This document shows, in pieces, positions 5,982 through 46,196 of a DNA stretch of 64,000 bases (its first letter is position 1; every line of letters starts with the position of its first letter). Location of the stretch: positions 1 through 64,000 of IMG/VR virus record IMGVR_UViG_3300025889_000075. The stretch is one strand, 5' to 3'. The DNA comes from a virus. The notes beneath the pieces are model-generated. The model saw nothing but the letters and a program-made list of their open reading frames with translations, had not been told where the DNA came from and did not search any database. Both the position numbers and the translations under genes were made by a program.

Positions 5982-6682
5982 TGAGTAGAACACAAAAACA
6001 GAATGGCGAAAACATGAATATTCGCCTTGACCAGTTAATAACAATCGACCCGATTACACAACGTCAGAAAGATGCAGTAACTGCTTGGAAAGAAGGTGAC
6101 AACCTCGCTTTAACTGGTACAGCAGGAACTGGTAAAACATTCCTAGCAATTTACCTCGCACTCGAGGAGGTAATGGACAAATCAACCCCATACGAAACAC
6201 TTCATATTATTCGATCAGTTGTACCTACTCGAGAGGTTGGATATTTACCAGGATCTTTAGAAGACAAACTTAATGCATTCACTGGACCATATCGTGCCGC
6301 GACTGCAGAATTATTCGAAGATTACAAAGCATATGAGAAGTTGGTTCATAACAATTATATCTCTTTCGAATCTACTTCTTACATTCGTGGGGTAACATAT
6401 GATAGCAGTATCATCTTAGTTGATGAAATGCAGAATCTTAACTTTCATGAATTAGATTCGGTAATTACTAGGATCGGACAAGGAACAAAGATTATCTTTA
6501 GTGGTGATTACCACCAGTCAGATTTCAAACAGGATAAAGAAAAAGAAGGAATAAATACTTTTCTAAGCATACTTGAAAACATGCGAAATTTTAGTATAAT
6601 AAACTTTGGTTGGGAAGATATAGTGCGTAGTGATTTTGTTCGCGACTATATCATGACAAAAGAATGGATGGGAATTAAATGA
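5981..6682 (+). CDS. phoH: PhoH-like P-loop ATPase
   Basis: 233 residues. Walker A GTAGTGKT at 46-53 and Walker B IILVDEMQN at 144-152 define the PhoH/ATPase domain, with the family's RSVVPTREVGYLPG segment at 78-91. PhoH is common in marine phages; its biochemical role (RNA-associated ATPase, linked to phosphate starvation in bacteria) is still unclear. The first ATG overlaps the previous stop; a second ATG at 6014 is also possible and would remove 11 residues before the conserved domain. Lies in a coupled string with the next two genes. Confidence 0.9.
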   Translation: MSRTQKQNGENMNIRLDQLITIDPITQRQKDAVTAWKEGDNLALTGTAGTGKTFLAIYLALEEVMDKSTPYETLHIIRSVVPTREVGYLPGSLEDKLNAFTGPYRAATAELFEDYKAYEKLVHNNYISFESTSYIRGVTYDSSIILVDEMQNLNFHELDSVITRIGQGTKIIFSGDYHQSDFKQDKEKEGINTFLSILENMRNFSIINFGWEDIVRSDFVRDYIMTKEWMGIK

Positions 6683-6876: not shown

Positions 6877-7315
6877 AAAAGCAATATTTGAAACGCTGAA
6901 AGTTGATGAAGGTGTAGAGTATAAAGTTTACGCAGATCATCTCGGATATCATACTTTTGGTGTCGGGCACTTAATTGTTGAGGGCGATCCTGAATGGGGA
7001 CAACCTTTTGAAACACCTGTGTCTGAAGAGAGAGTTTGGGAAGCATTCGAAAAAGATCTTGATGTTTCAATCAACGAATGCTATGTTTTATATGGGCAAA
7101 CAACTTTCGACGACTTCCCCGAAGAAGTTCAGCAGGTCGTTTGCAATATGATGTTTAACATGGGACGTCCGCGTTTATCTAAGTTTAAGAAATTTAATGC
7201 GGCATTAGAAGACGGGGATTGGGCAACAGCAGCAGTTGAGGGACGCGATTCGCTTTGGTATAAGCAAGTCCCAAATCGCGCTGAGCGTCTTATGTCTCGT
7301 CTGGAGGCGGTGTAA
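6869..7315 (+). CDS. e: T4-lysozyme-type endolysin (GH24)
   Basis: 148 residues, close to the usual length of T4 lysozyme (164). The catalytic triad of the family is present: Glu14 in DEGVEYKVY, Asp23 in ADHLGYHT and Thr29, followed by FGVGH. The late segment VVCNMMFNMGRPRLSKFKKF also matches the family. It hydrolyses the glycosidic bond of peptidoglycan at lysis. There is no signal peptide, so it would need a holin, which I do not recognise in this window. Confidence 0.92.
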   Translation: MDRKAIFETLKVDEGVEYKVYADHLGYHTFGVGHLIVEGDPEWGQPFETPVSEERVWEAFEKDLDVSINECYVLYGQTTFDDFPEEVQQVVCNMMFNMGRPRLSKFKKFNAALEDGDWATAAVEGRDSLWYKQVPNRAERLMSRLEAV

Positions 7316-7473
7316 TGGCTAAACCCCGAGGAAGCGGAGGCGGTATTGGTAGCGTTCAAAGACCTGAGCGTAAACCGAAAGGAACTTCAATTGGTAATGG
7401 CAATTTTAAAATGGCGTCATTAAACAAAAAGAAGAAGATGAGTTACAAACAATACAGAGGACAAGGTAGATAA
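7315..7473 (+). CDS. Small basic Gly-rich protein
   Basis: 52 residues. The start overlaps the endolysin stop (TAATG). MAKPRGSGGGIGSVQRPERK and the end SYKQYRGQGR are strongly basic and probably disordered; similar short peptides occur in marine T4-like phages. Nucleic-acid binding is plausible on charge alone. Function unknown. Confidence 0.6.
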   Translation: MAKPRGSGGGIGSVQRPERKPKGTSIGNGNFKMASLNKKKKMSYKQYRGQGR

Positions 7474-7475
7474 TT

Positions 7476-7640
7476 ATGGCGAAGTATTCGCGTTTTGATC
7501 CTAAGAATAAAAAGAAAAGTCGTGATCATATTTCTTTCAAGGATAGAAAAAAAGATAAGAAACAACGGTTCGAATCAGAGGAAGTGGTCGATAAGACTTC
7601 TCTGAAATACTACGAGAATCGCTACAACACAAGTCACTAA
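7476..7640 (+). CDS. Small highly charged protein
   Basis: 54 residues, dominated by Lys, Arg and Asp in the first 35 residues (FDPKNKKKSRDHISFKDRKK). It begins 2 nt after the previous stop and ends 3 nt before the glycan island. No ribosome site stronger than AGGTAGA is seen. Function unknown. Confidence 0.55.
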   Translation: MAKYSRFDPKNKKKSRDHISFKDRKKDKKQRFESEEVVDKTSLKYYENRYNTSH

Positions 7641-7643
7641 ATC

Positions 7644-8480
7644 ATGAGAGCGTTGCGCGTCGATCCCATCGACAATAGAACGTGGGAACTTTCCGATCAC
7701 TTAGAATGGAAAGGGACAATAGGTCATGGTGATTCTATGATGGGGTTGAACGTTGCTCACATGATGGCGAGTCTTCTTAAGACTACCGTGCAAATGGATG
7801 TGCATTGGTATCACGACAAAGATTATTTGTTTCACCCTGAAGATCCCGAAACCATAGTTGAAAGGTTTGATTACATTCATTCAATGTATCATAACAGTAA
7901 TACTGTAAAGGTTAATCACATCTATAATTCAACAGAAGAAGATGTTCGTAATATTAGATTTCGTGGATTTATTGAAGATAACAAAAAGAGAGGACAGGTA
8001 ATTAATGGTCTGAATTCTTGGATTTTTCGTCGTGATCTTTTTACGCCGCCAGAAAGAAACAAAATTGTGATTTGGAAACCTTTTGATAACGCCACTCCTG
8101 CGCCAAAATGGAAATTAAGTTTTAGTGAAAAAGATTGGAGTAAAATTGTAAAACACTATCTAATAAGAAAACATAGATATAACGTGGTTGAATTATCTTA
8201 CAGAACACCAATTCGCGAAGTATTTTACCACATAAGAACATGTAATTATGTAATTTGTTATGATGGAATGTGGCATTATATAACGAGGAATTTTATTAAA
8301 CCTTCTTTTGTTATTGGTGATCAAGGGGTAATTGAAGCACATAATCCACAGGCAATTACTATGAAAAAACCAATTGGATATGAAAAATTATTTAAGGATT
8401 ATGACAAGTTTATTATCGAGATTGAAGGTAAATGCGACATGTATCGTCAAAAAATGTTTAGGTATTTGAATGAAAATTGA
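7644..8480 (+). CDS. GT9-like (heptosyltransferase-type) candidate, first gene of the glycan island
   Basis: 278 residues. GHGDSMMGLNVAHMM near residue 28 resembles the N-terminal GxGDxLLxxP loop of GT-B enzymes of the ADP-heptose transferase family, and SYRTPIREVFYHIRTCNYV then CYDGMWHYITRNF near 190-220 resembles the C-terminal nucleotide-sugar region (DSGxxH in the family). The match is by pattern only and the domain is shorter than full heptosyltransferases (about 320-350). It overlaps the next gene by 11 nt. Confidence 0.5.
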   Translation: MRALRVDPIDNRTWELSDHLEWKGTIGHGDSMMGLNVAHMMASLLKTTVQMDVHWYHDKDYLFHPEDPETIVERFDYIHSMYHNSNTVKVNHIYNSTEEDVRNIRFRGFIEDNKKRGQVINGLNSWIFRRDLFTPPERNKIVIWKPFDNATPAPKWKLSFSEKDWSKIVKHYLIRKHRYNVVELSYRTPIREVFYHIRTCNYVICYDGMWHYITRNFIKPSFVIGDQGVIEAHNPQAITMKKPIGYEKLFKDYDKFIIEIEGKCDMYRQKMFRYLNEN

Positions 8481-9447
8481 TCGCGCGGTAATTGAAGTAA
8501 ACGGTGGTTGTAATTATTCTTGTTCTATGTGCCCACAAGATGTGAGAACTGGTGGACGCCACAAAGACTTCCTCAAAAAAATGTCCCTCAAAGAATTCGA
8601 GGATAACGTTGCCGATTGCGCGCAACATGGTCTTCGAGTTGTCAATCTAGATGGTTCTGGTGAAGCAACGCTGAACAGAAACCTACCTAAGTATATCGAG
8701 ATCGTCAAGAAATATAATGCTAAAGCATTCATCTTTTCCAACGGGTATCGTATGGAAGGGAAATTTATGAGAGACTGTGTTGACGCTGGATTAGATTTCT
8801 ATCGATTCTCTTGGATTGGTTATGATGTTGAAGCATATGATAAATGGATGTACAATAGAATAGGTGGTACATTCGGTTCAACATGGGACAAAGTGAAAGC
8901 AATGCGTGAGTACGTCAAGGAAACGGGTAGTGATTGTGTTGTTGCGACTTATCATCTAATTACTAATAATCAGAACCAAGACTTCGAATTGCAACACTAT
9001 AAGAAAATTGTAGAAGAACTTGATATAAAAACTGAAATTTGGAGAATGCATAACTGGTCAGGTGTCACTGATATTAGTGAAACTGGAGTGCGCAAAGGAG
9101 AGATAAAAACCTGTGGTCGTCCTTTTAGTCCTGACGTTGTTATTCGTGCTGGTGGTCTTAATGGTAAAAGAGGCGCTGTTCATCCGTGCTGTCAAGTCCT
9201 CGGAAGAGACGAAGAAGCAGTCCTCGGACACACTTCTGAAAACACTATTGAAGAAATTTGGGAAGGCGCTGAGTATTCTGCGCTCCGTGACGCTCATCGA
9301 AGCGGTAACTATCCTGACTATTGTAAGTCTTGTGACTTCTTGGTGGACGATCCTGAAATTCTAGTTTGGACTAATCATGAGAGAGATGTTTATAAAATGC
9401 ATGGTACAGATTTCGACTTGAAGGATTATCAAGATGTCTCTGCCTGA
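8470..9447 (+). CDS. Radical SAM enzyme with SPASM-type C-terminus
   Basis: 325 residues. The 4Fe-4S binding CxxxCxxC motif is Cys14, Cys18, Cys21 (NGGCNYSCSMCPQ), followed by the glycine-rich SAM-binding segment LDGSGEATLN near 60. The C-terminus carries further cysteines: TCGRP near 213, HPCCQ near 240 and YCKSCDF near 285, as in SPASM auxiliary cluster domains. Such enzymes start radical chemistry on peptides or sugars. Its neighbours are all glycan genes, so sugar epimerisation, deoxygenation or modification of a glycopeptide are possible substrates (inference). Confidence 0.88.
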   Translation: MKIDRAVIEVNGGCNYSCSMCPQDVRTGGRHKDFLKKMSLKEFEDNVADCAQHGLRVVNLDGSGEATLNRNLPKYIEIVKKYNAKAFIFSNGYRMEGKFMRDCVDAGLDFYRFSWIGYDVEAYDKWMYNRIGGTFGSTWDKVKAMREYVKETGSDCVVATYHLITNNQNQDFELQHYKKIVEELDIKTEIWRMHNWSGVTDISETGVRKGEIKTCGRPFSPDVVIRAGGLNGKRGAVHPCCQVLGRDEEAVLGHTSENTIEEIWEGAEYSALRDAHRSGNYPDYCKSCDFLVDDPEILVWTNHERDVYKMHGTDFDLKDYQDVSA

Positions 9448-10009
9448 TGTTTGGATGATAGTTGTTCCAAATAACAAAATCTCAAATTATTACTATCAAA
9501 GAACTAAAAAATCTTGGGAAAAACATAACTTTAAAGTAAGAAAGTTTCCAGCGGTTACGCCTGAAACTTTACATTTACAGCAAAATCAATTAGTATTTGA
9601 TACGAAAAGAGCAGGAAGAAGTAAAAGACCCTTTACTGAAACAGAAAAAGCAGTTTGGTATTCACATTATAATGCCTGGAGATTTGCTAAAGATTTAAAA
9701 GATCCAATCATAATAGCAGAACACGACGCTTGGCTTGAAAAACCTATTGCAAAAGAAATCTTTGATGAAAGAATTGTAAGTCTTTCTCATAATAGAAATA
9801 ATGGAAGAACATATTATGCTGCTGGTGTTTGTTACTATTTAAATCAAGAAATTTGTGGACAATTAATATCAGGAATTCGTGGTGTCAAAATAATTGAAAA
9901 TTCAGATAATTGGATACACAAACATGTTGATAGGTTTGGTAAATGGGAAAGAAAACACGCGTTCCAGTATAGTAATCCAAAGGTTGGGAAAACTATAAAA
10001 CATGGTTAA
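9434..10009 (+). CDS. GT25-like glycosyltransferase (1 of 4)
   Basis: 191 residues. It shares with three later genes (16015, 17832, 18530) the pair of signatures S-H-x-x-x-W (SHYNAW) and E-H-D-A (IIIAEHDAWL) typical of the GT25 LPS glycosyltransferase family, except that GT25 normally has E-D-D at the metal-binding site. A later segment (YYAAGVCYYL) matches the acceptor-region strand of the family. It overlaps its neighbours by 14 and 8 nt. Donor and acceptor sugars cannot be predicted. Confidence 0.65.
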   Translation: MSLPDVWMIVVPNNKISNYYYQRTKKSWEKHNFKVRKFPAVTPETLHLQQNQLVFDTKRAGRSKRPFTETEKAVWYSHYNAWRFAKDLKDPIIIAEHDAWLEKPIAKEIFDERIVSLSHNRNNGRTYYAAGVCYYLNQEICGQLISGIRGVKIIENSDNWIHKHVDRFGKWERKHAFQYSNPKVGKTIKHG

Positions 10010-10862
10010 AAAGGCAGCACTTTTAGTGAACGGTCAATATGACGTTCTTCTTCGGAGAGATGGATTAAAAGAATCACTCCAAGCAATTAAAGAACATTTC
10101 TATGATTATGACATATTTTATCAGTGTTGGGACACACATTTAAATCGACATATTTTTAAAGATATCGATGAAGAAATCTTTTGGATTCCGATGCCAGAAG
10201 AAAAAGAAAAAAATCCATATGACCTTGTTTTAGAGAACGGTATTATTATTCCTGGATATCACGCGGAGCGAGCGAGGTTTGCGTCAAAACAAAAACAAAA
10301 AAAATTAAAAACCAGATGTTTCCAACAGTATAGTTTTTGTCTACTGTACAAACATGTAACAGAAAAATACAATTATGATTATATTTTCCGCACACGTTGG
10401 GACGTAGTATTTTCGAAATATTTTAGTGCAGATTATCTTCTTCATTTAGCAAAAACAAACGTTGTTGGTTGTGGGGTTTCGACATCAACCAAAATTTTTA
10501 AAGCGTATTATGGTTCTAACGTTAGAAAAGAAATGACACCTCAGGAAATGCAGAGAAAAAAAAGAACGGTTATTAGAGATTTAATTAACAGCGAAATTGG
10601 TATTATTTCTGAAACAAAAAATAAAACATTTGATGAAAACCATCATACAAACTATTTATCTGATTTTATGATGGCAATACATAAAGATGATTTCGACGTT
10701 GATAACTCTATTAAATTATTTCATGAAGATATAATGTATCCTTCTGAGTGGGGGTGGTGGCAATTGTTTTGTCAGAAAAGAAAACATATTAATGTTAATG
10801 GATTGACATCTATACGAAGAAACGTTGAACAACTTGGATATAAAAAACACTGGAAATATTAA
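10002..10862 (+). CDS. Putative glycosyltransferase with RxRxD motif
   Basis: 286 residues. The core YDYIFRTRWDVVF (Arg130, Arg132, Asp134) matches the YDMIVRxRYD core of the genes at 14713 and 16692; in such GT-A-like proteins this Asp is a candidate metal or nucleotide ligand. The N-terminus has AALLVNGQYD instead of the SGIPRG of the other two, so it is a more distant member. No experimental function known to me for this family. Confidence 0.5.
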   Translation: MVKKAALLVNGQYDVLLRRDGLKESLQAIKEHFYDYDIFYQCWDTHLNRHIFKDIDEEIFWIPMPEEKEKNPYDLVLENGIIIPGYHAERARFASKQKQKKLKTRCFQQYSFCLLYKHVTEKYNYDYIFRTRWDVVFSKYFSADYLLHLAKTNVVGCGVSTSTKIFKAYYGSNVRKEMTPQEMQRKKRTVIRDLINSEIGIISETKNKTFDENHHTNYLSDFMMAIHKDDFDVDNSIKLFHEDIMYPSEWGWWQLFCQKRKHINVNGLTSIRRNVEQLGYKKHWKY

Positions 10863-11647
10863 TGAAGAGATTAATCTATCAAGTTTGTCTCGGTGGGCAA
10901 GCCAAATCTAAACTCTATGAAAAATGCATTGAATCTGTCTCGGCATATTGTGAAAAATATCACATCGAACATAGAGTTCAACGTGAACCGATCTTAAGAA
11001 TTAAACCTGATATTTTTATGACGAATCGAAGCAATGAGTCGTATGAAAAACACGGCGGATTTCTTCCTATCTACGAAAAAGAAAATGCGTTCGATCTTCT
11101 TGATGGATACGAACAGGTAGCGATCATTGACGCCGACGTTTATATTCGCGCAGAAGCAGGCAACGTTTTTGAAGAATTCGGATTTGACACCCCATTCGGC
11201 GCAGTTGTTGAAAGACAAATGCCAATCAATCAAGAATACAAACATAAGATTACCAACTATAGTCGAATGCAATATGCAGCATTACAAGACGTTGATTGGA
11301 AATGGAATAATCTCGGCGCAGAGTTCTGCAATATGGGCGTCATGTTTATTAACAGCGAGCAGTTCAAACCTTATCTTAACGGGCAAACAGCAAAACAATT
11401 TCTTGAGCGATATGAATTTAAAAGATTTATTGACGGTGAAGGTGCATGGAAATGGTCAACTGATCAAACACTTTTGAACTGGTGGGTAAAGAAAACGAAC
11501 ATGCCTGTTAAACATATGAACTGGCGCTGGAATGGATTATTCACTGCTAACACACAAATAGATAAATGTGACTTTGTTCATTTTTTCTTGAAAGATAAAT
11601 TACCAAATGGAGGAGAGGACATCAATTCCTTATTACAAATGATATGA
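10862..11647 (+). CDS. GT8-like nucleotide-sugar transferase with DAD motif
   Basis: 261 residues. AIIDADVYI places the DxD metal-binding motif at Asp90-Asp92, after a beta/alpha nucleotide-binding region. Later segments EFCNMGVMFIN and STDQTLLNWW match the acceptor and the DQ motif of GT8-type enzymes, and VHFFLKDK near the end carries the His of the C-terminal metal site. Start and previous stop share one base (TAATG). Probably transfers a hexose from a nucleotide sugar. Confidence 0.7.
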   Translation: MKRLIYQVCLGGQAKSKLYEKCIESVSAYCEKYHIEHRVQREPILRIKPDIFMTNRSNESYEKHGGFLPIYEKENAFDLLDGYEQVAIIDADVYIRAEAGNVFEEFGFDTPFGAVVERQMPINQEYKHKITNYSRMQYAALQDVDWKWNNLGAEFCNMGVMFINSEQFKPYLNGQTAKQFLERYEFKRFIDGEGAWKWSTDQTLLNWWVKKTNMPVKHMNWRWNGLFTANTQIDKCDFVHFFLKDKLPNGGEDINSLLQMI

Positions 11648-12081
11648 TCTTAATAGCACATCGAGGAAATACTTCTGGACCAAATAAAGAACAAGAGAAT
11701 AAACCAGAATATATAGACAAAGCACTAGAAAAATATGATTGTGAAATCGATGTTTGGAAAGTAGGTGATTATTATTTTCTTGGTCATGACAAACCAGAGC
11801 ACAAAGTAGACTACAATTGGTTTCGAGAAAGACAAGAAAAACTTTGGATTCATTGTAAAGATATATCTTCATTCACTGACCTTCATACTGAATTTAATTG
11901 TTTTTATCATAACATTGATCATTACACATTAACGAGTCACAATTATATTTGGGCGTATCCTGGATTCCTGGTTTACGAAAAGGCAAAGGCGATTGCAGTT
12001 ATGCCAGAAAAAACATTACATGCTTGGAATTTAAAATTGTTTGCGGGTATCTGTTCAGATTTGGTTGAGGATTATGATTAA
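11644..12081 (+). CDS. GDPD-like (glycerophosphodiester phosphodiesterase family) protein
   Basis: 145 residues. LIAHRGN at the N-terminus, ENKPEYIDKAL, CEIDVW (Glu-x-Asp) and FLGHD are the family's metal- and substrate-binding blocks in order: His-Arg, Glu, Glu-Asp and His-Asp. It is much shorter than full enzymes (about 240), stopping after the first half of the barrel, as in uncharacterised versions found in sugar clusters. Activity is therefore uncertain. Confidence 0.6.
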   Translation: MILIAHRGNTSGPNKEQENKPEYIDKALEKYDCEIDVWKVGDYYFLGHDKPEHKVDYNWFRERQEKLWIHCKDISSFTDLHTEFNCFYHNIDHYTLTSHNYIWAYPGFLVYEKAKAIAVMPEKTLHAWNLKLFAGICSDLVEDYD

Positions 12082-13420
12082 ATTAGTATTGTTTGATCTT
12101 GATGGTGTTCTTGTTGACGCTAAAGAGATACATTATGTCGCTTTAAATGAAGCACTAGGCGAGTATGCAATCACACCCGAAGAACATAGAAACATATACG
12201 ACGGAAGAAAAACCAATGAAAAATTGGTGATGTTAACAGAAAGAAAAGGATTGCCTGTCGAATTACATAAATCTGTCTTTGATAAAAAACAACAAAGAAC
12301 TGTTGAACTTCTGCACGATTTACATTTAAATAAAAATGCGATAGAATTATTTAAGTCGCTTGAAGAACAAGGATATATGATCGGTGTTTGTTCAAATTCA
12401 ATTAGAAGAACTGTTCTTACTGCGCTTTCTAAATCCGGATTGATTGAGTATTGTTCAGTAATATTATCTAATGAGGACGTGAAAAATTCTAAACCTCATC
12501 CAGAAATATATTGGAAAGCGATGTCTATGATGAACTGTCTTCCGGAAGAAACTGTGATAATTGAAGATTCACCTCCTGGTCTATTGGCAGCTGCTCGTTC
12601 TAGGGCGAACTATATAAGAGTACAAAATACAAAAGAAGTGAATAGAGAAAACATTATGCCTAAATTACAAACCACAGAAATTTCTAATAAATGGAAAGAC
12701 GATAACCTAAATGTTTTGATTCCAATGGCAGGTGCTGGATCAAGATTTCAACAAGCAGGATATACCTTTCCTAAACCTTTAATCGATGTCAATGGTAAAC
12801 CAATGATTCAAGTTGTTGTTGAGAACATTGGTCTTGACGCAAACTTTATTTTTGTAGTGCAAAAAGAGCATCGCGAAAAATTCCACTTGGATAATATGCT
12901 TCCTCTTATCGCACCGAACTGTAAGATTGTCGACGTGGATGGTATTACTGAAGGTGCAGCATGCACTGCTCTATTAGCAAAAGAATTTATCGATAAAGAC
13001 GCTCCGTTATTTTTTGCCAACAGCGATCAGTGGGTTGATTGGGATCCAGTACAGTTTATGTATGAAATGCAAGAAACTGAAGCAGATGGTGGCATAGTCA
13101 CGTTTAAAGCGACGCATCCGAAATGGTCTTATGCAGCAATCGATGAAGAAACTGGATTAGTAAAAGAGGTTGCTGAGAAAAACCCGATCAGCGATTGTGC
13201 TACGGTTGGATTTTATTATTGGAAGCGTGGTTCAGATTTTGTCAAATATGCAGAACAAATGATAAAGAAAGATGTTCGGGTGAATAATGAATTCTATGTT
13301 TGTCCCGTATTTAATGAAGCAATACAGGATGGTAAAGAAGTCAGAGTCAGCACCGCTACATCAATGTGGGGACTGGGAACTCCAGAAGATCTAGAGTATT
13401 ATCTTAAGGAAAAGAAATGA
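12074..13420 (+). CDS. HAD phosphatase fused to sugar nucleotidyltransferase
   Basis: 448 residues from the ATG at 12074, which overlaps the previous stop; an upstream start at 12041 would add 11 unrelated residues. Residues 1-195 are a HAD phosphatase: FDLDGVLVD (Asp8, Asp10), CSNS near 106, KPHPEIY and IIEDSPPG near 162. Residues 213-448 are a nucleotidyltransferase: IPMAGAGSRF at 216-225, FPKPLIDVNGKPM, FANSDQW for the metal Asp, and WGLGTPED at the end. The two steps, dephosphorylation of a sugar bisphosphate and activation to an NDP-sugar, are consecutive in several pathways such as heptose activation, so this protein probably makes the donor for the island (inference). Confidence 0.8.
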   Translation: MIKLVLFDLDGVLVDAKEIHYVALNEALGEYAITPEEHRNIYDGRKTNEKLVMLTERKGLPVELHKSVFDKKQQRTVELLHDLHLNKNAIELFKSLEEQGYMIGVCSNSIRRTVLTALSKSGLIEYCSVILSNEDVKNSKPHPEIYWKAMSMMNCLPEETVIIEDSPPGLLAAARSRANYIRVQNTKEVNRENIMPKLQTTEISNKWKDDNLNVLIPMAGAGSRFQQAGYTFPKPLIDVNGKPMIQVVVENIGLDANFIFVVQKEHREKFHLDNMLPLIAPNCKIVDVDGITEGAACTALLAKEFIDKDAPLFFANSDQWVDWDPVQFMYEMQETEADGGIVTFKATHPKWSYAAIDEETGLVKEVAEKNPISDCATVGFYYWKRGSDFVKYAEQMIKKDVRVNNEFYVCPVFNEAIQDGKEVRVSTATSMWGLGTPEDLEYYLKEKK

Positions 13421-14103
13421 AATCCGGATATGAATCAGGCATAGGCGCGTGGTATGATAAATTATCATTTGAGGAAGCGTGTGGTAGCGGAAGTTATCCT
13501 AAAAACAATGCAGCATATTGCAAAACATTAATACAACATCTACAATCATTAAAAGTAAATAAAGTAGTTGATCTAGGTTGCGGTAATTTACAGTCGTATA
13601 AAGGCAATCTAGATTGGACAACTACTGGTATAGAATATGTCGGTTACGAAGCGAACCAAATTGCATTAAAAGAACTAGCAAAAAAATATCCCGAACTACG
13701 TTTTGAGCAAGCAATTTTATCTGAGATACCAGAACCCGCAGATGCTATCATTATTAAAGATGTTCTGATACATTGGTATGATGAAGCAATCACTACATTT
13801 TTTGATCATGTGTTCGAGAACTTTCGCTATGTGATGTATATGCATTCAACTACCAATCGCGGATACAAAAACCGGAATAAGAGAGAAATGTATAATAAAC
13901 TCGATCCCAGCGATCGGATTGGATGGAAACCAGATTCAGGAAAACTGCCGCCTGAAGGATATACTTTTTGGCCAAAACCATATGGATGTTACGGGTATAA
14001 ATGTGTGCCCGAAAAATTACTTCCATTAAGCAAGGTTATACATCAGGAAAATATTATGGGCGACAGTATGAAGACGTTTATAGTGTTTGATAGACAAAAA
14101 TGA
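13417..14103 (+). CDS. Class I SAM-dependent methyltransferase
   Basis: 228 residues. Motif I VVDLGCGNLQ near 48-57, an acidic residue in motif II (GYEANQIA) and motif IV IIIKDVLIHW near 110 define the Rossmann methyltransferase fold. It overlaps both neighbours by 4 nt. The substrate is unknown; small-molecule or sugar methylation fits the neighbours. It lacks DNA-methyltransferase motifs such as NPPY. Confidence 0.75.
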   Translation: MKSGYESGIGAWYDKLSFEEACGSGSYPKNNAAYCKTLIQHLQSLKVNKVVDLGCGNLQSYKGNLDWTTTGIEYVGYEANQIALKELAKKYPELRFEQAILSEIPEPADAIIIKDVLIHWYDEAITTFFDHVFENFRYVMYMHSTTNRGYKNRNKREMYNKLDPSDRIGWKPDSGKLPPEGYTFWPKPYGCYGYKCVPEKLLPLSKVIHQENIMGDSMKTFIVFDRQK

Positions 14104-14711
14104 TTTTTGTATTGGGCGGTCAGAAACGCGGTGATTCACAAACATGGAATTCTATTGCTGAATTGCAGCGTCTCTCTGGGGCGAAAATATATGTGTCTGG
14201 ATATGAACATTGGGGCAAATTACCCTTTGAATATACATGGTTTGACACACCAACAGAAATAGCGCATAATATATTTAGTGATGAAAACTCATGGTATAAA
14301 CATAAGGATAAGTATCCAAGATACTATCATCAATGGAGACACCTCTCATATTGTTACGATAACATTAAACCGGATTTTAATGAAATAATATATAAAATTC
14401 GTAATGATTATAATTACTCAGGATTTCCCTTGCAGGATATAGAACCTAACACTATACACGTACCCAGGAAAGAACATCATGCTGCAAGAGAATTTCCGAT
14501 TGACATAGTATGTAATGATCAAATATTGGGTATGGATAAACCAACAGCAGACAAGTATTTTAATCTGCCTAATTATATACCAGAAACACCAGATAAAATA
14601 CTAAAAACATTTAACAGAAACAAATTATGTGACACTGGCATAGAAGCAATTCTACGCGACTATATGTATTTCCACAACATTAATTTAAAGACATTCGTTT
14701 TTAGGTATTGA
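14100..14711 (+). CDS. Protein of the glycan island, degenerate RxRxD-type candidate
   Basis: 203 residues. EIIYKIRNDYNY (Lys99, Arg101, Asp103) stands in the place of the YDMIVRxRYD motif of its neighbours, with the first Arg replaced by Lys; the N-terminus IFVLGGQKRGD also resembles ICISGIPRGD of the next gene. This suggests a divergent family member, possibly inactive or with altered specificity. It is a weak inference from motif spacing. Confidence 0.4.
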   Translation: MIFVLGGQKRGDSQTWNSIAELQRLSGAKIYVSGYEHWGKLPFEYTWFDTPTEIAHNIFSDENSWYKHKDKYPRYYHQWRHLSYCYDNIKPDFNEIIYKIRNDYNYSGFPLQDIEPNTIHVPRKEHHAAREFPIDIVCNDQILGMDKPTADKYFNLPNYIPETPDKILKTFNRNKLCDTGIEAILRDYMYFHNINLKTFVFRY

Positions 14712-14712
14712 A

Positions 14713-15468
14713 ATGAAAACAGCAATTTGTATATCTGGTATCCCGCGAGGAGATACCAAAAAAAATGTTAACATAGCAAAATCGCATTTCGACGCTGATG
14801 TTTTTTATGCAACATATATTGATCAAGAAGACCAAGTTAAAAAATACACTGACACGTATTATCTTCACCCCGAACCTACGCTATCATATCATCCTCTTGC
14901 AGATATACCCGAAGACATTATGCCTCCCGTTGCTAAAACATGGGCATTACGTGAGAAAATCAAATCTGACTTCATGTTGTATGAACGCATGAGACATCAA
15001 TCAAAACAGATTTTTGCGCACGATATGCTACTAGGTGAAGTGCCCGATGATTATGATATGATTGTGCGCATGCGATATGACACCAGACTTTCAAAAGTTG
15101 TCAACTTGACACAATATCTTGATAGGAGTTACAACGAAAACCTAGCAATAGGATTTGGTACACGCACCTCACGGCATAAGAGTCTAGACAGTTTGGTAGA
15201 GGTTCCTAAACTGTGGGCAGATCGATGGAATCCAACACCAGGAATCAGCAACGACTGGGGAGGTTATATCATGGACCCGTTGATACTGCATCCTAGAAAA
15301 CTGTGGAGCAGAGAACGACTCAAAGAGTTACACTCGAAGCGAAGTCTTATGGCAGCAGAGAGAGGGTTTTATCAAATACTCTCGCAACCATACGGCGACA
15401 CGCACGAGTGCTACTATGGCGGAGCACAGATTGAGAAGTATTTGAGGCAGACAGACTATGCAAAATAA
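14713..15468 (+). CDS. Putative glycosyltransferase with SGIPRG and RxRxD motifs
   Basis: 251 residues. N-terminal ICISGIPRGD (residues 5-14) and YDMIVRMRYDTRLS (Arg119, Arg121, Asp123) are shared almost word for word with the gene at 16692, as are YHPL/YHPI near 60, HQSKQI/HHTKQI near 97 and the C-terminal GGAQIEKYLR. The two are clear paralogues. The fold and reaction are not known to me; glycosyltransferase is inferred from context and the acidic core motif. Confidence 0.55.
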   Translation: MKTAICISGIPRGDTKKNVNIAKSHFDADVFYATYIDQEDQVKKYTDTYYLHPEPTLSYHPLADIPEDIMPPVAKTWALREKIKSDFMLYERMRHQSKQIFAHDMLLGEVPDDYDMIVRMRYDTRLSKVVNLTQYLDRSYNENLAIGFGTRTSRHKSLDSLVEVPKLWADRWNPTPGISNDWGGYIMDPLILHPRKLWSRERLKELHSKRSLMAAERGFYQILSQPYGDTHECYYGGAQIEKYLRQTDYAK

Positions 15469-16018
15469 TTGGGACTTGTGGCAGTATGATTCTTATGAGG
15501 ACTATGTAAACGCACAGATCAACGCAAATCACAGGAAAGAGTCTGTAGTTTGGGTGGAGAAACAGGCAATTGAAAAGGTGTCTTCCGTTGTTTCGCATGA
15601 TGTAAAAAACATTCTGTGTCATGGCACGAGAAACGGCAAGGAGTTACAATATTTTCAGGAGATGTTCCCTGACGCACATGTTATTGGTTCTGAGATATCA
15701 GACACGGCAACCAAATACCCAAACACTGTGCAGTGGGACTTTCATGAGGTAAATGAGGACTGGACAAACAGTTTTGACATCGTATACAGCAACTCATTTG
15801 ATCACAGTTATGATCCTAAAGCATGTCTTACCACGTGGAAAGGTCAATTGTCAAGTGTTGGCACTATCGTGATAGAGTTACAGACACAAAAACCAAAACG
15901 ATCAGATCCACTGAGTATATCGCAGGAGGCATTCGAGCACCTTGTTGACTCTCTAGATATGCAGATCAAAACTATAGAGCAAGGAAGTCACAAAGTACCG
16001 CTATATTTTATATCATGA
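15458..16018 (+). CDS. Class I methyltransferase-like protein
   Basis: 186 residues. ILCHGTRNGKELQYF near 50 stands for motif I (GxRxG in place of GxGxG), IGSEISDTA is motif II with an acidic end, and FDIVYSNSFDHSYDP is motif IV and the following catalytic loop. This is the layout of SAM methyltransferases acting on small molecules. Overlaps neighbours by 11 and 4 nt, so it belongs to the coupled island. Confidence 0.6.
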   Translation: MQNNWDLWQYDSYEDYVNAQINANHRKESVVWVEKQAIEKVSSVVSHDVKNILCHGTRNGKELQYFQEMFPDAHVIGSEISDTATKYPNTVQWDFHEVNEDWTNSFDIVYSNSFDHSYDPKACLTTWKGQLSSVGTIVIELQTQKPKRSDPLSISQEAFEHLVDSLDMQIKTIEQGSHKVPLYFIS

Positions 16019-16695
16019 AAGCATTTATATACTATATAAGCAATCATACCCCATCTATCCTACAGGCAGAGGATGCTCTTAGATCATTTAATATCAATTC
16101 TGGTTGGGAACCGACGCTCACGAAAGGCATAACACCAAAAACACTAGAAGAATATCCTACCATAAAAGAACAGAGCAGATTGCTCAACTTTCAGAAAGAG
16201 AACGAGAACAGATTTAAGACCAAAGTTAGTTGTGCGATGAATCACTTGACTTTTTGGGAAAAGGTAGTAGAATTAAATGAACCGTGTGCGTTCATAGAGC
16301 ACGATGCAATCTGTATAGGGTCTTGGAAAAACTATGATTTTGATGAGTATTTAATATTAAATGCTGATCATGTTTTTAGACCACCAAACAAATTAGGTAT
16401 AAAGAAATATGAGTCGTTTGAGTTTCCTAAAACAGATTCTCCGAAAGATTTACCGAAGAACTACCCATTGCAGTACTATAGAGAAAACAACTGGAAAGGT
16501 AGCAACATGGCACCAGGAACGGGAGCATATGCCATCACTCCGAAGGGAGCATTGAAGATGTTGAAAGCGGCAAAATTTGATGGATTAGATCAATCTGATT
16601 TTATGATCAACTCGCACAACGTAAAACTGCAATATATGACACTATTTAAATTTAACAAACAAAACCTAAGTACATCATACGGAATTTCTGTATGA
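16015..16695 (+). CDS. GT25-like glycosyltransferase (2 of 4)
   Basis: 226 residues. Signatures: CAMNHLTFWEKV, with N-H in place of S-H, CAFIEHDAIC for the metal site, and PGTGAYAITPKGALKML for the acceptor region, the GT25 order. As in the other three copies of the window the metal motif reads EHD instead of EDD. Coupled to both neighbours by 4-nt overlaps. Confidence 0.68.
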   Translation: MKAFIYYISNHTPSILQAEDALRSFNINSGWEPTLTKGITPKTLEEYPTIKEQSRLLNFQKENENRFKTKVSCAMNHLTFWEKVVELNEPCAFIEHDAICIGSWKNYDFDEYLILNADHVFRPPNKLGIKKYESFEFPKTDSPKDLPKNYPLQYYRENNWKGSNMAPGTGAYAITPKGALKMLKAAKFDGLDQSDFMINSHNVKLQYMTLFKFNKQNLSTSYGISV

Positions 16696-17384
16696 AAATA
16701 GCAGTTTGTTATTCTGGGATACCTAGAGGTATTTTCAAAAAGAACAACATGTCTGTTAAACATCATTTTCCTGAAGCAGATTATTTTTACTCAACATGGT
16801 TAAACCAAGAAACATCGATGCCCGCTGTGCAATATGTAACATATAAAGAACCACAAATGCATTATCATCCAATTAAAGATGTAGGTTCTGAGATGTTAAA
16901 TACAATGAAACTAAAATACCTTTATAAAAAAGTTTGTGCAGAAAATGATTATTATGAAAGAACGTCACACCACACTAAACAAATTTTAGGGCACGCGTAT
17001 CAATTAGATGAATTAGATGCATCATACGACATGATTGTTAGAGTAAGATATGACACATATTTATCTCCTAAAGTAAATTTGAGAAAATACTTAGAAATGT
17101 CATACAATAACAAAATTGCAATTGGATTTTCGCAAAGAGACAAAAATTTACATGAATTAAAAGAAGTAGCGTTTGATGATCGAGATCGAACTAAGTATAT
17201 CTTAGATCTTTTACTTTTTCATAGAAGAGATATGTTTTCTACTGATTTGGTTTATGATTTACATAGAAATAAAAAATTACTTTTGGCAGAAAATGGATGG
17301 TATCAAATATTAAGTGAACCATTCAATGATAATCATCTTTGTGTTCATGGCGGGGCACAAATAGAAAAATATATTAGAGAATGA
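16692..17384 (+). CDS. Putative glycosyltransferase, paralogue of the 14713 gene
   Basis: 230 residues. VCYSGIPRG at 5-13 and YDMIVRVRYDTYLS (Arg117, Arg119, Asp121) repeat the motifs of the protein at 14713, with the same C-terminal GGAQIEKYIRE. It lacks the roughly 20 residues inserted near 175 of the first copy. The duplication is separated by two other genes, so it is old or was moved. Confidence 0.55.
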   Translation: MKIAVCYSGIPRGIFKKNNMSVKHHFPEADYFYSTWLNQETSMPAVQYVTYKEPQMHYHPIKDVGSEMLNTMKLKYLYKKVCAENDYYERTSHHTKQILGHAYQLDELDASYDMIVRVRYDTYLSPKVNLRKYLEMSYNNKIAIGFSQRDKNLHELKEVAFDDRDRTKYILDLLLFHRRDMFSTDLVYDLHRNKKLLLAENGWYQILSEPFNDNHLCVHGGAQIEKYIRE

Positions 17385-17385
17385 T

Positions 17386-17835
17386 ATGAGTTGGGAAGAA
17401 TCAACACTACAAGAAGAAATTGAGTCATCAAAAAAATCTCCGATAAATACTCAAAAAATAGTTGCACCAAAAGAAAACCTGATAACGCCTGGTCAAACTA
17501 TTACTAAAACGTGGGGAGTTGAGAAATGGATTGTTAATGAAGAAACATATAATGCTAAAATTTTAGTTATTAATCCTGGGTCATATACTTCACTTCACTT
17601 CCATAAAGAGAAAAAAGAATATCTTTATATTATGTCAGGAGAGTTTGCTTTAGTAACGATAGACCTTCTTAAGAATCCAGGCAAAAAACAAGAAATTTTA
17701 CTATCTGTTGGCGATATGTACATCGCAGAACCACTTGAATTTCATCAGATCCGAGGCGTTAGAGCAGGACAAATTCTAGAAACATCAAACAGATTAGATC
17801 GTGGTGACATTTATCGTATAGAGAGATCAAGATGA
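17386..17835 (+). CDS. Cupin-fold protein, mannose-6-phosphate isomerase type II-like
   Basis: 149 residues. A single cupin barrel: KTWGVEKWIV, then LVINPGSYTSLHFHKEKKE with the HxHxxxxE-like metal motif, GEFALVTID and GDMYIAEPLEFHQIRG with the last metal His. This resembles the C-terminal cupin of mannose-6-phosphate isomerase/GDP-mannose pyrophosphorylase and sugar epimerases. Likely acts on a phosphorylated sugar in the island's pathway (inference). Starts 1 nt after the previous stop. Confidence 0.75.
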   Translation: MSWEESTLQEEIESSKKSPINTQKIVAPKENLITPGQTITKTWGVEKWIVNEETYNAKILVINPGSYTSLHFHKEKKEYLYIMSGEFALVTIDLLKNPGKKQEILLSVGDMYIAEPLEFHQIRGVRAGQILETSNRLDRGDIYRIERSR

Positions 17836-18533
17836 TTAAGGCATATGTTATAAGAATTGTTGACAACGAGGTCTCAGAGAAAGCAGCAAACCGTTTAATT
17901 GAGAGTTCTAAGTTTGTTTCCAATCAATTCGAGATAGAAAAGTTTAATGCTGTTGTTCCGGAAAGAATAAATGAGATTTGTAAACGATCAAATCTGAGAT
18001 GGAATTATCCCTGGCAGGGTGTTCACGACGATTGGGCATCAGGATTAATGAAGATTGCCTATGAGACAGCGAATCCTGAAAAGCGAGTTGCCTGTTTTCT
18101 TTCGCACTATTTGCTTTGGTGCGAATCAGTTGCTTTCGGAGAACCGATTTTAATCTTTGAACATGACGCGTTGTTTCAAGAACATCTAGACGTTGACTTG
18201 CTTTTAGAATCAAGATATGGTATTATAGGTCTTAATGATCCAAGAGGCGCTACTAGGAGATCGTTACAATTTTATGAGATCATGCAAGCAAACCCTGACG
18301 CAATTCAACCTGCACCCAAAGTCGATGATATGAAAATACCACAAGGTATTGCTGGTAACTCTGCTTATCTAATTAAACCAGAAGCTGCTATGAAACTAAT
18401 CAATCTAACAGATGAGTTTGGTATGTGGCCAAATGATGCTATTATGTGTCAGCAGTTATTGCCAGGAGTGCTTGGTGTTACTAAAACATATCACACAACA
18501 ATTCAAAGGACTCAATCAACAACAACATTATGA
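17832..18533 (+). CDS. GT25-like glycosyltransferase (3 of 4)
   Basis: 233 residues. The best match to the family among the four: AYVIRIVDNE at the N-terminus, RVACFLSHYLLWCE, ILIFEHDALF and GNSAYLIKPEAAMKLI, then the DAIMC acidic site before the C-terminal TTIQR. EHD replaces the usual EDD. Coupled to both neighbours. Confidence 0.72.
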   Translation: MIKAYVIRIVDNEVSEKAANRLIESSKFVSNQFEIEKFNAVVPERINEICKRSNLRWNYPWQGVHDDWASGLMKIAYETANPEKRVACFLSHYLLWCESVAFGEPILIFEHDALFQEHLDVDLLLESRYGIIGLNDPRGATRRSLQFYEIMQANPDAIQPAPKVDDMKIPQGIAGNSAYLIKPEAAMKLINLTDEFGMWPNDAIMCQQLLPGVLGVTKTYHTTIQRTQSTTTL

Positions 18534-19177
18534 AATCATACGTAATCACAATCAAAGATCTTCCCAAATCAGTAGAAATCGCTCAACGTTGTGCTAATTC
18601 TCTAAGAGATTATAATGTTCAAATGTTTGATGCCTTTACGCCTAAGAACAAACCAGAAGCATTACTCGAAAGCGAAGGAATACCCACTAAGAATTTTAAA
18701 GAGGTATACTCAAACTATGAGAATTGTATGGCAGCATTTTTCTCTCACTATTCTCTTTGGAAACAATGCGCTGAACAAGGTATTGAGTATCAAATATTTG
18801 AGCACGACGCAGTAGCAGTAAACGATATTCCTATGGTTATACCTTATAACAAAGTAATCAGTTTAGGCAAACCAAGTTATGGAAGGTATAATGTACCAAC
18901 GAATCTTGGTGTCAATCCTCTACAATCAAAAAAATATTTCCCAGGAGCACATGCTTATCGCCTCAAACCAGAGGGAGCGAAAGAGTTAATTGAACGAGCA
19001 AAAGTAGACGCAGGACCAACAGATATATACTTACATCTCGGTAGGTTTCCTTGGTTAGAAGAATATTATCCTTGGCCAGTAGAAGCAAGAGATCATTTTA
19101 CTACAATTCAAAGACAAGAAGGATGCTTAGCAAAACATAGTTATGGAGAAGGATATGAAATCCTCAGGCATGAGTAG
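18530..19177 (+). CDS. GT25-like glycosyltransferase (4 of 4)
   Basis: 215 residues. SYVITIKDLPKSVEIAQRC at the N-terminus, FFSHYSLWKQC, YQIFEHDAVA and GAHAYRLKPEGAKELI reproduce the order of the previous gene, as does the C-terminal TTIQRQ, so the two adjacent genes are likely a tandem duplication that has since diverged widely. Confidence 0.7.
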   Translation: MKSYVITIKDLPKSVEIAQRCANSLRDYNVQMFDAFTPKNKPEALLESEGIPTKNFKEVYSNYENCMAAFFSHYSLWKQCAEQGIEYQIFEHDAVAVNDIPMVIPYNKVISLGKPSYGRYNVPTNLGVNPLQSKKYFPGAHAYRLKPEGAKELIERAKVDAGPTDIYLHLGRFPWLEEYYPWPVEARDHFTTIQRQEGCLAKHSYGEGYEILRHE

Positions 19178-19820
19178 ATGTTTTATAACTGGTTGTGATT
19201 CTAACACCGAATGGATGCTACCGTGGTTTGCAAAAAACTACGCTAAACATAACGATACTGAAATTGGGTTTGTCGACTTTGGAGTTACTGAAGAAACACG
19301 TGCGTGGGTTTATCAACAATCGCCGTTTAAGTTTATCTTAGATGTTCCTCGTCAAAGAGTTAATGGATGGTTTCTTAAACCGAAGGCATTAATTAAAACT
19401 CCGCGCCATGAAGTTTGTTGGATTGATACTGACATACACGTTCTTGGTGATATTTCTGGTATCTTTAATTATCTTGAAGAAGGTAAACTCGCAATGGTTG
19501 AAGATAAACCATGGAGCAAGAGAAGAGGTGAAACCTGGCACAACTCAGGCGTAGTTGGTATTAGGGGCAAACCACCAATTCTAACTGACTGGGTAGATGC
19601 TTGTTACGAGAATCCGAAGGTTGGGGATCAAGAGGTTTTGCATGAAATGTTGGTTGAGTCCCCTTTAAAACGCCTCAGCAATATAGTAGACTTACCCAAT
19701 ATATACAATTGGTTAAGGATTCAACTATTAGACGGTGACGATAATCCCAATAAATTGTGTATGCATTGGACTGGACATAAGGGCAACCTAGAAATCAGGA
19801 AGTTGATTTACAATGAGTAA
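19170..19820 (+). CDS. GT8-like nucleotide-sugar transferase with DTD motif
   Basis: 216 residues from ATG 19170, which overlaps the previous stop; earlier in-frame starts (19143, 19155) would lie further inside the previous gene. VCWIDTDIHVLGD places the DxD motif at Asp86-Asp88; WHNSGVVGIRG is the acceptor strand, GDQEVLHEM the DQ motif and MHWTGHKG the C-terminal metal His, all in GT8 order. Probably a hexosyltransferase. Confidence 0.68.
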   Translation: MSRCFITGCDSNTEWMLPWFAKNYAKHNDTEIGFVDFGVTEETRAWVYQQSPFKFILDVPRQRVNGWFLKPKALIKTPRHEVCWIDTDIHVLGDISGIFNYLEEGKLAMVEDKPWSKRRGETWHNSGVVGIRGKPPILTDWVDACYENPKVGDQEVLHEMLVESPLKRLSNIVDLPNIYNWLRIQLLDGDDNPNKLCMHWTGHKGNLEIRKLIYNE

Positions 19821-19968
19821 GATTATTGAATTTCCCAAAAAACTTAATGTAATACAAAAACAAGCACAAGATATACTTGAAGAACTTAATGAGATTAATG
19901 AACAAGTTGACGAGATTAATCGTCAAACACAGATGATATTGGAAATGTTTGAGGATAATAATGAGTAA
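19813..19968 (+). CDS. Short coiled-coil protein
   Basis: 51 residues, almost entirely a predicted coiled coil (QDILEELNEINEQVDEINRQ). It overlaps both neighbours by 8 nt. It could be an oligomerisation partner for an enzyme of the island; nothing more can be said. Confidence 0.6.
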   Translation: MSKIIEFPKKLNVIQKQAQDILEELNEINEQVDEINRQTQMILEMFEDNNE

Positions 19969-20680
19969 GGTAGTTCATATTTTAGGTAATGGTGATAAAG
20001 CACATTTCTATCATAATGTGAAGAAAGGCGCAGATGATATGAAACTAATCTGTAATCTTCCACCATTCGAAATACCCATTAACGAAGTCTATGCTACATG
20101 CATGGTAGATTTTAAGATGATGGCAGCATTGACTGCTAATGCGCTGAACCTAGATGCCTATCGTTGGGTATTGGGTAATCGCCCTAAGATTTGGATGACT
20201 GCTCCTAACAACAGCATGTTTTATTTTAAATATGCTCCAAACATTCGAGAGTTTTATTTGAAAGTTCCAAAGTATGCTGGCAATGCCACTAATTTTAACT
20301 GCGGACATATGGCAGTACATTATGCTGCCAATAAACATAAAGCAGAGGAAATTCATATGTATGGATTCGATTCTATTTTTGATTTTAACATGAGGAGTTA
20401 TACTGACGTTGTTTTGTCGAGCGACAGAGGAAACGCCAACAACTATCGCCTCCTAGGTAACTGGCGACCAATCTGGACTGGAATCTTTAAAGAGTTTCCT
20501 AATACTAAATTTGTTATGCATCATGATCACACAGATGTTAAAGTTGAAATAACAAAGAACGTTGAAATTGTTGTTCATAATCCGAAACCGAAAGAGGAAC
20601 CATCGGAATGGAACAACAAGTTGGTTAAAAGAGCGAAAGACACCTCTACAGCATTGGATAGATTGAAAGCGCGTGTTTGA
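19961..20680 (+). CDS. Conserved protein at the end of the glycan island
   Basis: 239 residues from the ATG at 19961 (an upstream in-frame start at 19949 lies deeper in the preceding gene). VVHILGNGDKAHFYHN is a glycine-rich first loop of a nucleotide-binding fold, and GHMAVHYAANKHKAEEIHMYGFDSIFD resembles the core of DUF115/MptE-like and related sialyltransferase-type proteins. That comparison is by eye and weak. Could be another transferase. Confidence 0.45.
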   Translation: MSKVVHILGNGDKAHFYHNVKKGADDMKLICNLPPFEIPINEVYATCMVDFKMMAALTANALNLDAYRWVLGNRPKIWMTAPNNSMFYFKYAPNIREFYLKVPKYAGNATNFNCGHMAVHYAANKHKAEEIHMYGFDSIFDFNMRSYTDVVLSSDRGNANNYRLLGNWRPIWTGIFKEFPNTKFVMHHDHTDVKVEITKNVEIVVHNPKPKEEPSEWNNKLVKRAKDTSTALDRLKARV

Positions 20681-21350
20681 ACATGTTAAAGTCGATCTTG
20701 GTTACAATGACCTTGAATCGCATACAGGTGAAACAAAAAGAACTTACGCAACTCCGGATGGCGTTAGGTATCCATCTATCACAACAGTTCTTAGCATTCT
20801 TAGCGAAAATTCTATCTCTGAGTGGCGTAAACGGGTAGGCGAAGAAGAAGCAAATAGAATTTCTACACGCGCTTCCAGAAGAGGTACAGCAGTTCACGAA
20901 GCAATCGAAAAATATATAGATAATTCTCCATGGGAGAACATCGTCAAAGAATATACCCCAGATGTTATTGAATCAATTATAAATGTTCGAGATATACTAG
21001 ATGCAAGAATCGGAAAAGTATACGGGCAGGAACTTCCTCTTTATAGTGACCATCTACGTGTTGCTGGGCGTGTCGATTGTGTTGCTGAATTTGACGGAAA
21101 GATATCAATCATTGATTTTAAAACATCCAGAAAACCAAAGCGAAGTGATTGGATCAAATCCTATTTCTGCCAAGAAGCAGCATACGCAATCATGTGGGAA
21201 GAACGCACTGGAATGCCAATTACCCAACTCGTTACCATAATAGCAGTTGATCAGTCAGAAGCACAGGTTTTTATCGAAAAACGAGACGATCATACCGCTC
21301 TTTTAACCGAAACAATAGCGACCTACGAAAAACGTTTGCAAAATCAATAA
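20673..21350 (+). CDS. PD-(D/E)XK exonuclease, RecB/Cas4-like
   Basis: 225 residues, starting on GTG inside the end of the previous gene; no in-frame ATG lies near. RGTAVHEAIE gives the conserved His75, GRVDCVAEF the metal Asp135, and IIDFKTSRK the Asp148 and Lys150 of the nuclease motif; QEAAYAIMWEE is the downstream Gln/Tyr helix. Such single-domain nucleases act in phage recombination or DNA processing. Confidence 0.8.
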   Translation: MFEHVKVDLGYNDLESHTGETKRTYATPDGVRYPSITTVLSILSENSISEWRKRVGEEEANRISTRASRRGTAVHEAIEKYIDNSPWENIVKEYTPDVIESIINVRDILDARIGKVYGQELPLYSDHLRVAGRVDCVAEFDGKISIIDFKTSRKPKRSDWIKSYFCQEAAYAIMWEERTGMPITQLVTIIAVDQSEAQVFIEKRDDHTALLTETIATYEKRLQNQ

Positions 21351-23800: not shown

Positions 23801-23802
23801 TT

Positions 23803-23878
23803 GCCGCTATAGCTCAGCAGGTAGAGCAACTGATTTGTAATCAGTAGGTCCCGAGTTCGATTCTTGGTGGCGGCACCA
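23803..23878 (+). tRNA. tRNA-Thr (anticodon TGT)
   Basis: 76 nt. Acceptor GCCGCTA/TGGCGGC (one G-T wobble), D arm GCTC/GAGC, anticodon arm ACTGA-TTTGTAA-TCAGT giving TGT, T arm CCGAG TTCGATT CTTGG. CCA is encoded. TGT reads ACA, a codon suited to an AT-rich genome. Confidence 0.95.
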
Positions 23879-23880
23879 TT

Positions 23881-46171: not shown

Positions 46172-46196
46172 AACAAGTATTAAATTGGGATAAAAA

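Follow-up and report, generated by a model that had tools for sequence, protein, structure and literature searches.

An ordered glycan gene island with a variable middle in a T4-like phage, and its possible role at the host surface

The window analysed here comprises 64,000 nucleotides (positions 1 to 64,000) of IMG/VR record IMGVR_UViG_3300025889_000075, a phage genome of 155,131 bp whose baseplate proteins are T4-like. Between positions 7644 and 20680 it carries a glycan island of 19 consecutive open reading frames (ORFs), here designated A to S and all located on the plus strand (Table 1). ORF calling, in which the 51-amino-acid (aa) ORF R was counted, revealed no competing minus-strand gene within this interval, and thereby bore out a preliminary description of 19 tightly overlapping genes on one strand. 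After three starts had been shifted on the basis of conserved N termini and start-codon inspection (HAD-nucleotidyltransferase gene G from 12041 to 12074, Q from 19143 to 19170, S from 19949 to 19961), overlaps of 1-14 nt are seen at 16 of the 18 junctions and gaps of 1 nt at the other two. Tight packing is common throughout this phage genome, but the island is tighter still, as all 18 of its junctions are at most 1 nt apart versus 82 of 162 elsewhere (Fisher P 1.6e-5). The gene train also runs beyond the island: PhoH, lysozyme and small ORFs precede A, and S overlaps an exonuclease gene (20673-21350) by 8 nt. With phoH at 5981-6682 and tRNAs at 23702-23957, the island thus occupies a hypervariable site near both, the content of which varies at the same place in relatives; it sits in a nucleotide-metabolism block between lysozyme/PhoH and the exonuclease gene, away from the fibre genes.

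Clustered at this site are 10-11 transferases ("about ten" in the preliminary description) together with a HAD-nucleotidyltransferase, a cupin and methyltransferases. The transferases comprise four members of glycosyltransferase family 25 (GT25), two GT8-like, one GT9-like, three WavE-like paralogues and one tentative MptE/sialyltransferase-like protein. As profile-based predictions, the identities of the radical SAM enzyme with SPASM domain (B), the four GT25 proteins (C, L, O and P, at 33.1-50.2 bits versus a PF01755 cut-off of 24), the HAD-NTP_transferase fusion (G, with PDB profile matches to 4evw at E 1.2e-24 and to beta-PGM at E 1.8e-24) and the cupin (N) are confirmed. Radical SAM enzyme, HAD-nucleotidyltransferase and cupin had already been named as such and were upheld by their Pfam profiles, whereas the designation of the cupin as isomerase-like could not be established. 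In B, the CxxxCxxC and SPASM cysteines are invariant, relatives share 70-87% identity, and a weak PDB match points to BtrN.

A second group of identities is supported by profiles or models, namely A (GT-B fold), E and Q (GT8-like), the D/J/M family and F (GDPD-like). Structure prediction and comparison, which had been proposed for each protein, was applied to A, whose best Foldseek matches are WaaC (E 1.5e-3, probability 1.00, TM-score 0.49) and TibC; it has no Pfam GT9 match and is a putative GT9-like protein by fold, and an RTP...Y-(D/N)-GM...KP block is invariant. The same approach gave only weak matches for S: a PDB fold search did not fix its fold, with a weak Foldseek hit to a sialyltransferase (E 7.7e-3, TM-score 0.31), and weak PF01973 MptE-like matches in 2 of 15 members stand beside a BFVD match to an MptE-like phage protein (E 1.8e-2). 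D, J and M belong to a common family marked by the motif R-x-R-[YFW]-D, although none matched PF07507 (WavE) above the cut-off, the single weak match (E 0.012) scoring 15.3 bits versus 27, and a PDB profile search with the family returned implausible kinase matches only. Protein I was considered as a further member and rejected, as hhalign gave no match to the J/M family. The truncated GDPD-like gene F, with invariant HR...E.D...H residues, is an addition to the genes listed previously. The methyltransferases of the preliminary description correspond to two class-I proteins, H and K, whose assignments are weak, as is that of S.

Table 1. Genes of the island (positions in the window) and a NolO-like ORF of related loci
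Gene	Assignment	Position	Strand	Basis
A	GT9/heptosyltransferase-like (GT-B) transferase, first backbone gene	7644..8480	+	AlphaFold2 pLDDT 81; Foldseek WaaC, TibC
B	Radical SAM + SPASM enzyme	8470..9447	+	PF04055 E 3e-13, PF13186 E 2.6e-9
C	GT25 glycosyltransferase	9434..10009	+	PF01755 E 6.6e-8
D	WavE-like transferase, divergent J/M family member	10002..10862	+	hhalign to J/M alignment E 4.5e-19, probability 99.1
E	GT8-like (GT-A) transferase, backbone gene	10862..11647	+	invariant DxD; weak LgtC profile match E 0.39
F	Truncated GDPD-like protein, paired with HAD-nucleotidyltransferase	11644..12081	+	PDB GDPD E 7.8e-5; phrog_34507
G	HAD phosphatase (beta-PGM-like) fused to sugar-1-phosphate nucleotidyltransferase, putative donor synthesis	12074..13420	+	PF13419 E 1.4e-30, PF00483 E 8e-11
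H	Class-I methyltransferase (weak)	13417..14103	+	PF13649 E 1.7e-3; phrog_3382 E 2.3e-9
I	Possible transferase	14100..14711	+	no Pfam/PHROG match
J	WavE-like transferase	14713..15468	+	phrog_13607 E 1.5e-6; M paralogue with R-x-R-[YFW]-D motif
K	Class-I methyltransferase (weak)	15458..16018	+	PF13847 E 1.3e-4
L	GT25 glycosyltransferase	16015..16695	+	PF01755 E 1.5e-10
M	WavE-like transferase	16692..17384	+	weak PF07507 E 0.012; phrog_13607 E 2.9e-6
N	Cupin (WbuC / mannose-6-phosphate isomerase C-terminal type)	17386..17835	+	PF07883 E 3.4e-7; TIGR04366 WbuC E 1.4e-5, below cut-off
O	GT25, backbone gene	17832..18533	+	PF01755 E 3.8e-13
P	GT25, backbone gene	18530..19177	+	PF01755 E 4.4e-12
Q	GT8-like (GT-A, DxD) transferase, backbone gene	19170..19820	+	glycogenin/LgtC profile match E 0.017-0.027
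R	51-aa coiled-coil-like small ORF	19813..19968	+	seen only in this phage's two identical contigs
S	Last backbone gene, MptE/sialyltransferase-like (tentative)	19961..20680	+	AlphaFold2 pLDDT 84; weak fold/profile matches
NolO-like	~500-aa ORF	L172 (C48C1) 45704-47221; L255:4378-5871; L256; L291; L331		

Contigs of the site were collected from IMG/VR with the HAD-nucleotidyltransferase and the exonuclease as baits, and in many of them the same succession of PhoH, lysozyme, island and exonuclease was found, the island ends being conserved and its middle variable. When IMG/VR was scanned with the radical SAM alignment, 533 related stretches emerged; in the best 80 loci, A was always present (80/80) and lay directly upstream of the radical SAM gene in 73. 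Twenty islands are complete from A to S, span 6.0-11.8 kb and lie each on one strand, and although the island contigs are partly non-independent and include some near-duplicates, all 20 follow the backbone order A-radical SAM-(E)-[HAD-nucleotidyltransferase]-(O)-(P)-(Q)-S, with E occupied in 19, O in 16, P in 19 and Q in 18. The variable middles of the relatives encode a UDP-sugar-type epimerase, a sulfotransferase, a sugar C-methyltransferase, a polysaccharide pyruvyltransferase, an FkbM methyltransferase and a second radical SAM protein. Minimal forms also occur: Phage C48C1 keeps A, the radical SAM gene and S, and another genome (G002) has lost or never had A, the radical SAM gene and the HAD-nucleotidyltransferase but possesses E, L, O, P, Q and S. 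In the closest pairs, pairwise counts gave nonsynonymous divergence (dN) of 0.05-0.12 and synonymous divergence (dS) of ~0.8 or far higher, with dN/dS at ~0.04-0.08 where dS was measurable; the island genes are thus under strong purifying selection.

Bacterial relatives of G, mostly with F adjoining, occur in SAR11, Prochlorococcus and Balneolaceae. The Balneolaceae relative (L174, 63% identical) belongs to a cluster with UDP-GlcNAc 2-epimerase, Polysacc_synt_2 and Bac_transf, and that of Prochlorococcus (L175) to one with a SIS isomerase, a GHMP kinase, a nucleotidyltransferase and a GT25 gene; judged by homology, both loci clearly hold polysaccharide genes. A single glycan pathway, as previously suggested, is therefore well supported by the gene families, the fixed order over many phages, purifying selection, and the surface-polysaccharide clusters in which the bacterial homologues of the donor gene reside.

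As for the timing of expression, the whole genome holds 20 plus-strand copies of the exact T4-type late promoter TATAAATA, none of them before 29679; over the remainder the motif is enriched (20 versus 6.7 expected), and 10 of the 20 copies lie 10-60 nt ahead of gene starts. Positions 1-29678 contain none, versus 1.5 expected by chance. This absence was initially taken as strong evidence, but since just 1.5 occurrences are expected in the first 29.7 kb it was downgraded after the chance calculation, and is now regarded as modest evidence, consistent with the island belonging to the early or middle genes. On the minus strand, TATAAATA is likewise missing (0 versus 5.6 expected outside the early block), which suggests that misplaced late promoters are avoided there.

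Beyond the gene families, operon packing, conserved order, variable middle and purifying selection, which are observed, we infer an acceptor, a sugar identity, a radical SAM chemistry, an order of steps and a biological role as follows. With a probability of about 0.6, the island is a glycan assembly line that would act inside the host cell's cytoplasm at an early stage of infection, remodelling a host surface glycan, most likely of the lipopolysaccharide (LPS) core/O-chain type, a role also supposed for large cyanophages. G, together with the GDPD-like F, would produce an activated NDP-sugar; the heptosyltransferase-like A, the radical SAM/SPASM enzyme and E would then start or alter the chain, a phage-specific middle (here GT25, WavE-like proteins, methyltransferases and cupin) would add the variable part, and O, P, Q and S would complete it, before the product is exported by the host's own route. 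Hydropathy gave no convincing transmembrane segment in any island protein, the sole score above 1.6 lying in the soluble HAD-nucleotidyltransferase, and no membrane flippase, polymerase or lipid-linked transferase of the Wzx/Wzy or GtrABC type was found among them; because the island is devoid of membrane, flippase, polymerase and lipid-carrier genes, export and lipid anchoring would fall to the host. The altered surface would keep competing phages from superinfecting the cell or progeny from adsorbing to debris.

Several observations weigh against this proposal. The GT25, GT8 and GT9 families also include protein glycosyltransferases, as exemplified by TibC beside WaaC among the matches of A. 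Moreover, the WavE similarity is weak (E 0.012), the activities of S, I, F and the radical SAM enzyme are predictions only, and the late-promoter gap in the first 29.7 kb is modest evidence, while the islands of other phages hold 9 TATAAATA-type motifs in 183 kb.

The soluble, cytoplasmic nature of all island enzymes and the likeness of A to the protein heptosyltransferase TibC as well as to WaaC would also suit a pathway that glycosylates virion proteins (tail fibres, baseplate or capsid), giving the virion a variable coat that would hide it or modify its adsorption. Capsid glycosylation has been suggested for mycobacteriophage glycosyltransferases (PMC11256854), and the same genome possesses a very large tail-fibre region with a run of ~ten paralogue-like ORFs of ~400 aa that begin MAI(N/D)I... 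and probably represent tail-fibre or adhesin repeats (genome 78801-92638 and 107629-108861, outside the window); genes for a sulfotransferase (92689) and a 2OG-Fe(II) oxygenase (93528) come after the run. We nevertheless consider a virion target rather unlikely: the island lies between lysozyme/PhoH and the exonuclease gene instead of beside the fibre genes and is without a late promoter, the bacterial relatives of its donor gene reside in surface-polysaccharide clusters, and relatives carry a polysaccharide pyruvyltransferase. In the literature searched, no close precedent for virion glycosylation in T4-like phages was found. Remodelling of the host surface is preferred because the middle genes of the relatives constitute a surface-polysaccharide toolkit and because the donor gene's bacterial relatives sit in polysaccharide loci. 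The families present also speak for it, with four GT25 proteins of the "LPS biosynthesis" family, the WaaC-like A, the LgtC-like E and Q, the WavE-like D, J and M and the HAD-nucleotidyltransferase, as does the published O-chain reading of similar pelagimyophage clusters (PMC7029224). Hence, of the three targets named at the outset, the host surface is the best supported and phage fibres come second, and phage DNA would be the least likely. An elaborate glycan on DNA, built downstream of a TET oxygenase and a TET-associated glycosyltransferase (TAGT), did receive some support, as the genome encodes both: the Tet_JBP gene (129444-130775) overlaps the TAGT gene (130772-131578), and together they constitute a compact DNA-hypermodification locus of a marine T4-like phage (129444-131578; L168:5444-7578). 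Given this pair, the phage could plausibly contain hydroxymethylated and glycosylated bases, and both island and TET-TAGT pair lie outside the late-promoter-marked genes. However, the pair forms a locus of its own 110 kb from the island and outside the window, with neither gene inside the island. Four complete cyanophages with HAD-nucleotidyltransferase and GT25 genes have no TET, TAGT or dCMP hydroxymethylase (PF00303), three genomes have the radical SAM backbone but yielded no TET (G003, G004, G008), and G002 has TET but lacks the radical SAM gene. None of the other nine records tested, among them C48C1 and G002, contains TAGT; as some records tested for TET and TAGT are perhaps incomplete, such absences are not proof. 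Because a dedicated TET-TAGT pair exists elsewhere and the island does not co-vary with TET, a DNA target is disfavoured and appears improbable.

Another view, considered for cyanophage LPS clusters (PMC3037559), is that such genes are non-functional "stuffer" DNA filling the head. The large size and variable content of the island would be compatible with it, and no function has been demonstrated in any relative, yet strong purifying selection, intact catalytic motifs and a gene order fixed across many contigs make it highly improbable here. Whether large LPS clusters of marine T4-like phages are functional or stuffer was previously open (PMC3037559), and because the gene order is fixed, dN/dS low and the active sites intact, we argue that the present island is a working version. 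More tentatively, the island might represent a viral counterpart of the bacterial O-antigen locus, in which the outer set (A, radical SAM, E, O, P, Q, S) would build the common base and end of a phage-defined oligosaccharide with a radical-SAM-made sugar and the swappable middle would set the "serotype", displayed on either the infected cell or the virion. The small conserved backbone, with at least A, radical SAM and S, offers a defined gene set for expression and assay. If the host coat is indeed remodelled, lytic ocean phages would exert a widespread, uncharacterised form of superinfection control with an unusual radical SAM step.

The preliminary description had compared the island to the single glucosyltransferases of T4, which it far exceeds. 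This holds true, but T4 is a poor yardstick, as large LPS clusters are known in cyanophages (PMC3037559) and glycosyltransferase-rich regions in pelagimyophages (PMC7029224). The T4 alpha/beta-glucosyltransferases share phage-encoded glycosylation with the island, yet are single enzymes acting on hydroxymethylcytosine DNA, a role for which this phage has its separate TET-TAGT pair, with no PF00303 match in its genome. Closer are the T4-like cyanophages P-SSM2, S-SSM7 and S-SM2 with their large LPS-gene clusters of unknown functionality (Sullivan et al. 2010, PMC3037559); one such cluster of P-SSM2 lies near phoH and cyanophage clusters are proximal to tRNAs (PMC3037559), and S-SCSM1 has 13 cell-wall-related genes (PMC9602691). 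Our phage is likewise a lytic T4-like myovirus with a large cluster of LPS-type transferase and nucleotide-sugar genes near phoH and tRNAs. It differs in its own backbone (A-radical SAM-E...O-P-Q-S) and in the absence of psbA/psbD: no gene of this family was found in its genome, whereas two cyanophage controls scored, and the radical SAM profile matched nothing in the four cyanophage genomes tested. Cassettes of S-PRM1, S-8S55, B23, S-CAM9 and DSL-LC03 share a HAD-nucleotidyltransferase ~52-53% identical to G with glycosyltransferase genes alongside, and S-PRM1 and DSL-LC03 also the GDPD-like F; unlike the island, however, they have other partner transferases (e.g. a GT11 fucosyltransferase), no radical SAM match and a different genome site.

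The host recognition cluster of pelagimyophages, a glycosyltransferase-rich variable region with radical SAM cassettes, has been read as serving host O-chain modification (PMC7029224). These are related T4-like phages of streamlined marine bacteria, and the likeness in transferase-rich variable region and radical SAM is evident, but their cluster includes tail fibres, whereas our island is remote from fibre genes and its backbone is strictly ordered; in HTVC008M the radical SAM match is only weak. The nearest named phage tested is Phage C48C1 (OQ984149, Kyanoviridae), in which A (37% identity), radical SAM (69%) and S (49%) follow in the same order, although its version is reduced, with no GT25 family match and no tblastn match to C-R. 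It is not mentioned in the literature searched. Direct megablast against named phages gave no match, and the baseplate wedge protein has C48C1 (40%), pelagiphage HTVC008M and Methylophilales phages among its nearest named relatives. A strictly ordered backbone that opens with GT9-like and radical SAM genes, closes with GT25, GT8 and S and encloses an exchangeable middle was not found described in the part of the literature searched.

Further genes lie near the island or its relatives. Two small basic ORFs (52 and 54 aa; window 7315-7640) between lysozyme and A are kept in relatives even without A and the radical SAM gene. They (7315 and 7476) were considered as precursor peptides of the radical SAM enzyme, an idea that was dropped because 7476 is conserved in a locus (L008) with neither A nor radical SAM. 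In another subclade, a ~500-aa ORF, annotated in C48C1 as a NolO-like carbamoyltransferase, precedes A and radical SAM by a few genes (Table 1). A UDP-glucose/GDP-mannose dehydrogenase-like gene (window 27968-28735) matches the central-domain model only, and a second dehydrogenase-like gene (genome 123925-124815) was seen only through its similarity to the UDP-glucose dehydrogenase of C48C1. Finally, a full-length isocitrate lyase gene (window 23978-25192; PF00463, E 1e-94), 73% identical to a C48C1 gene annotated as hypothetical, may possibly act as an auxiliary gene of the glyoxylate shunt.

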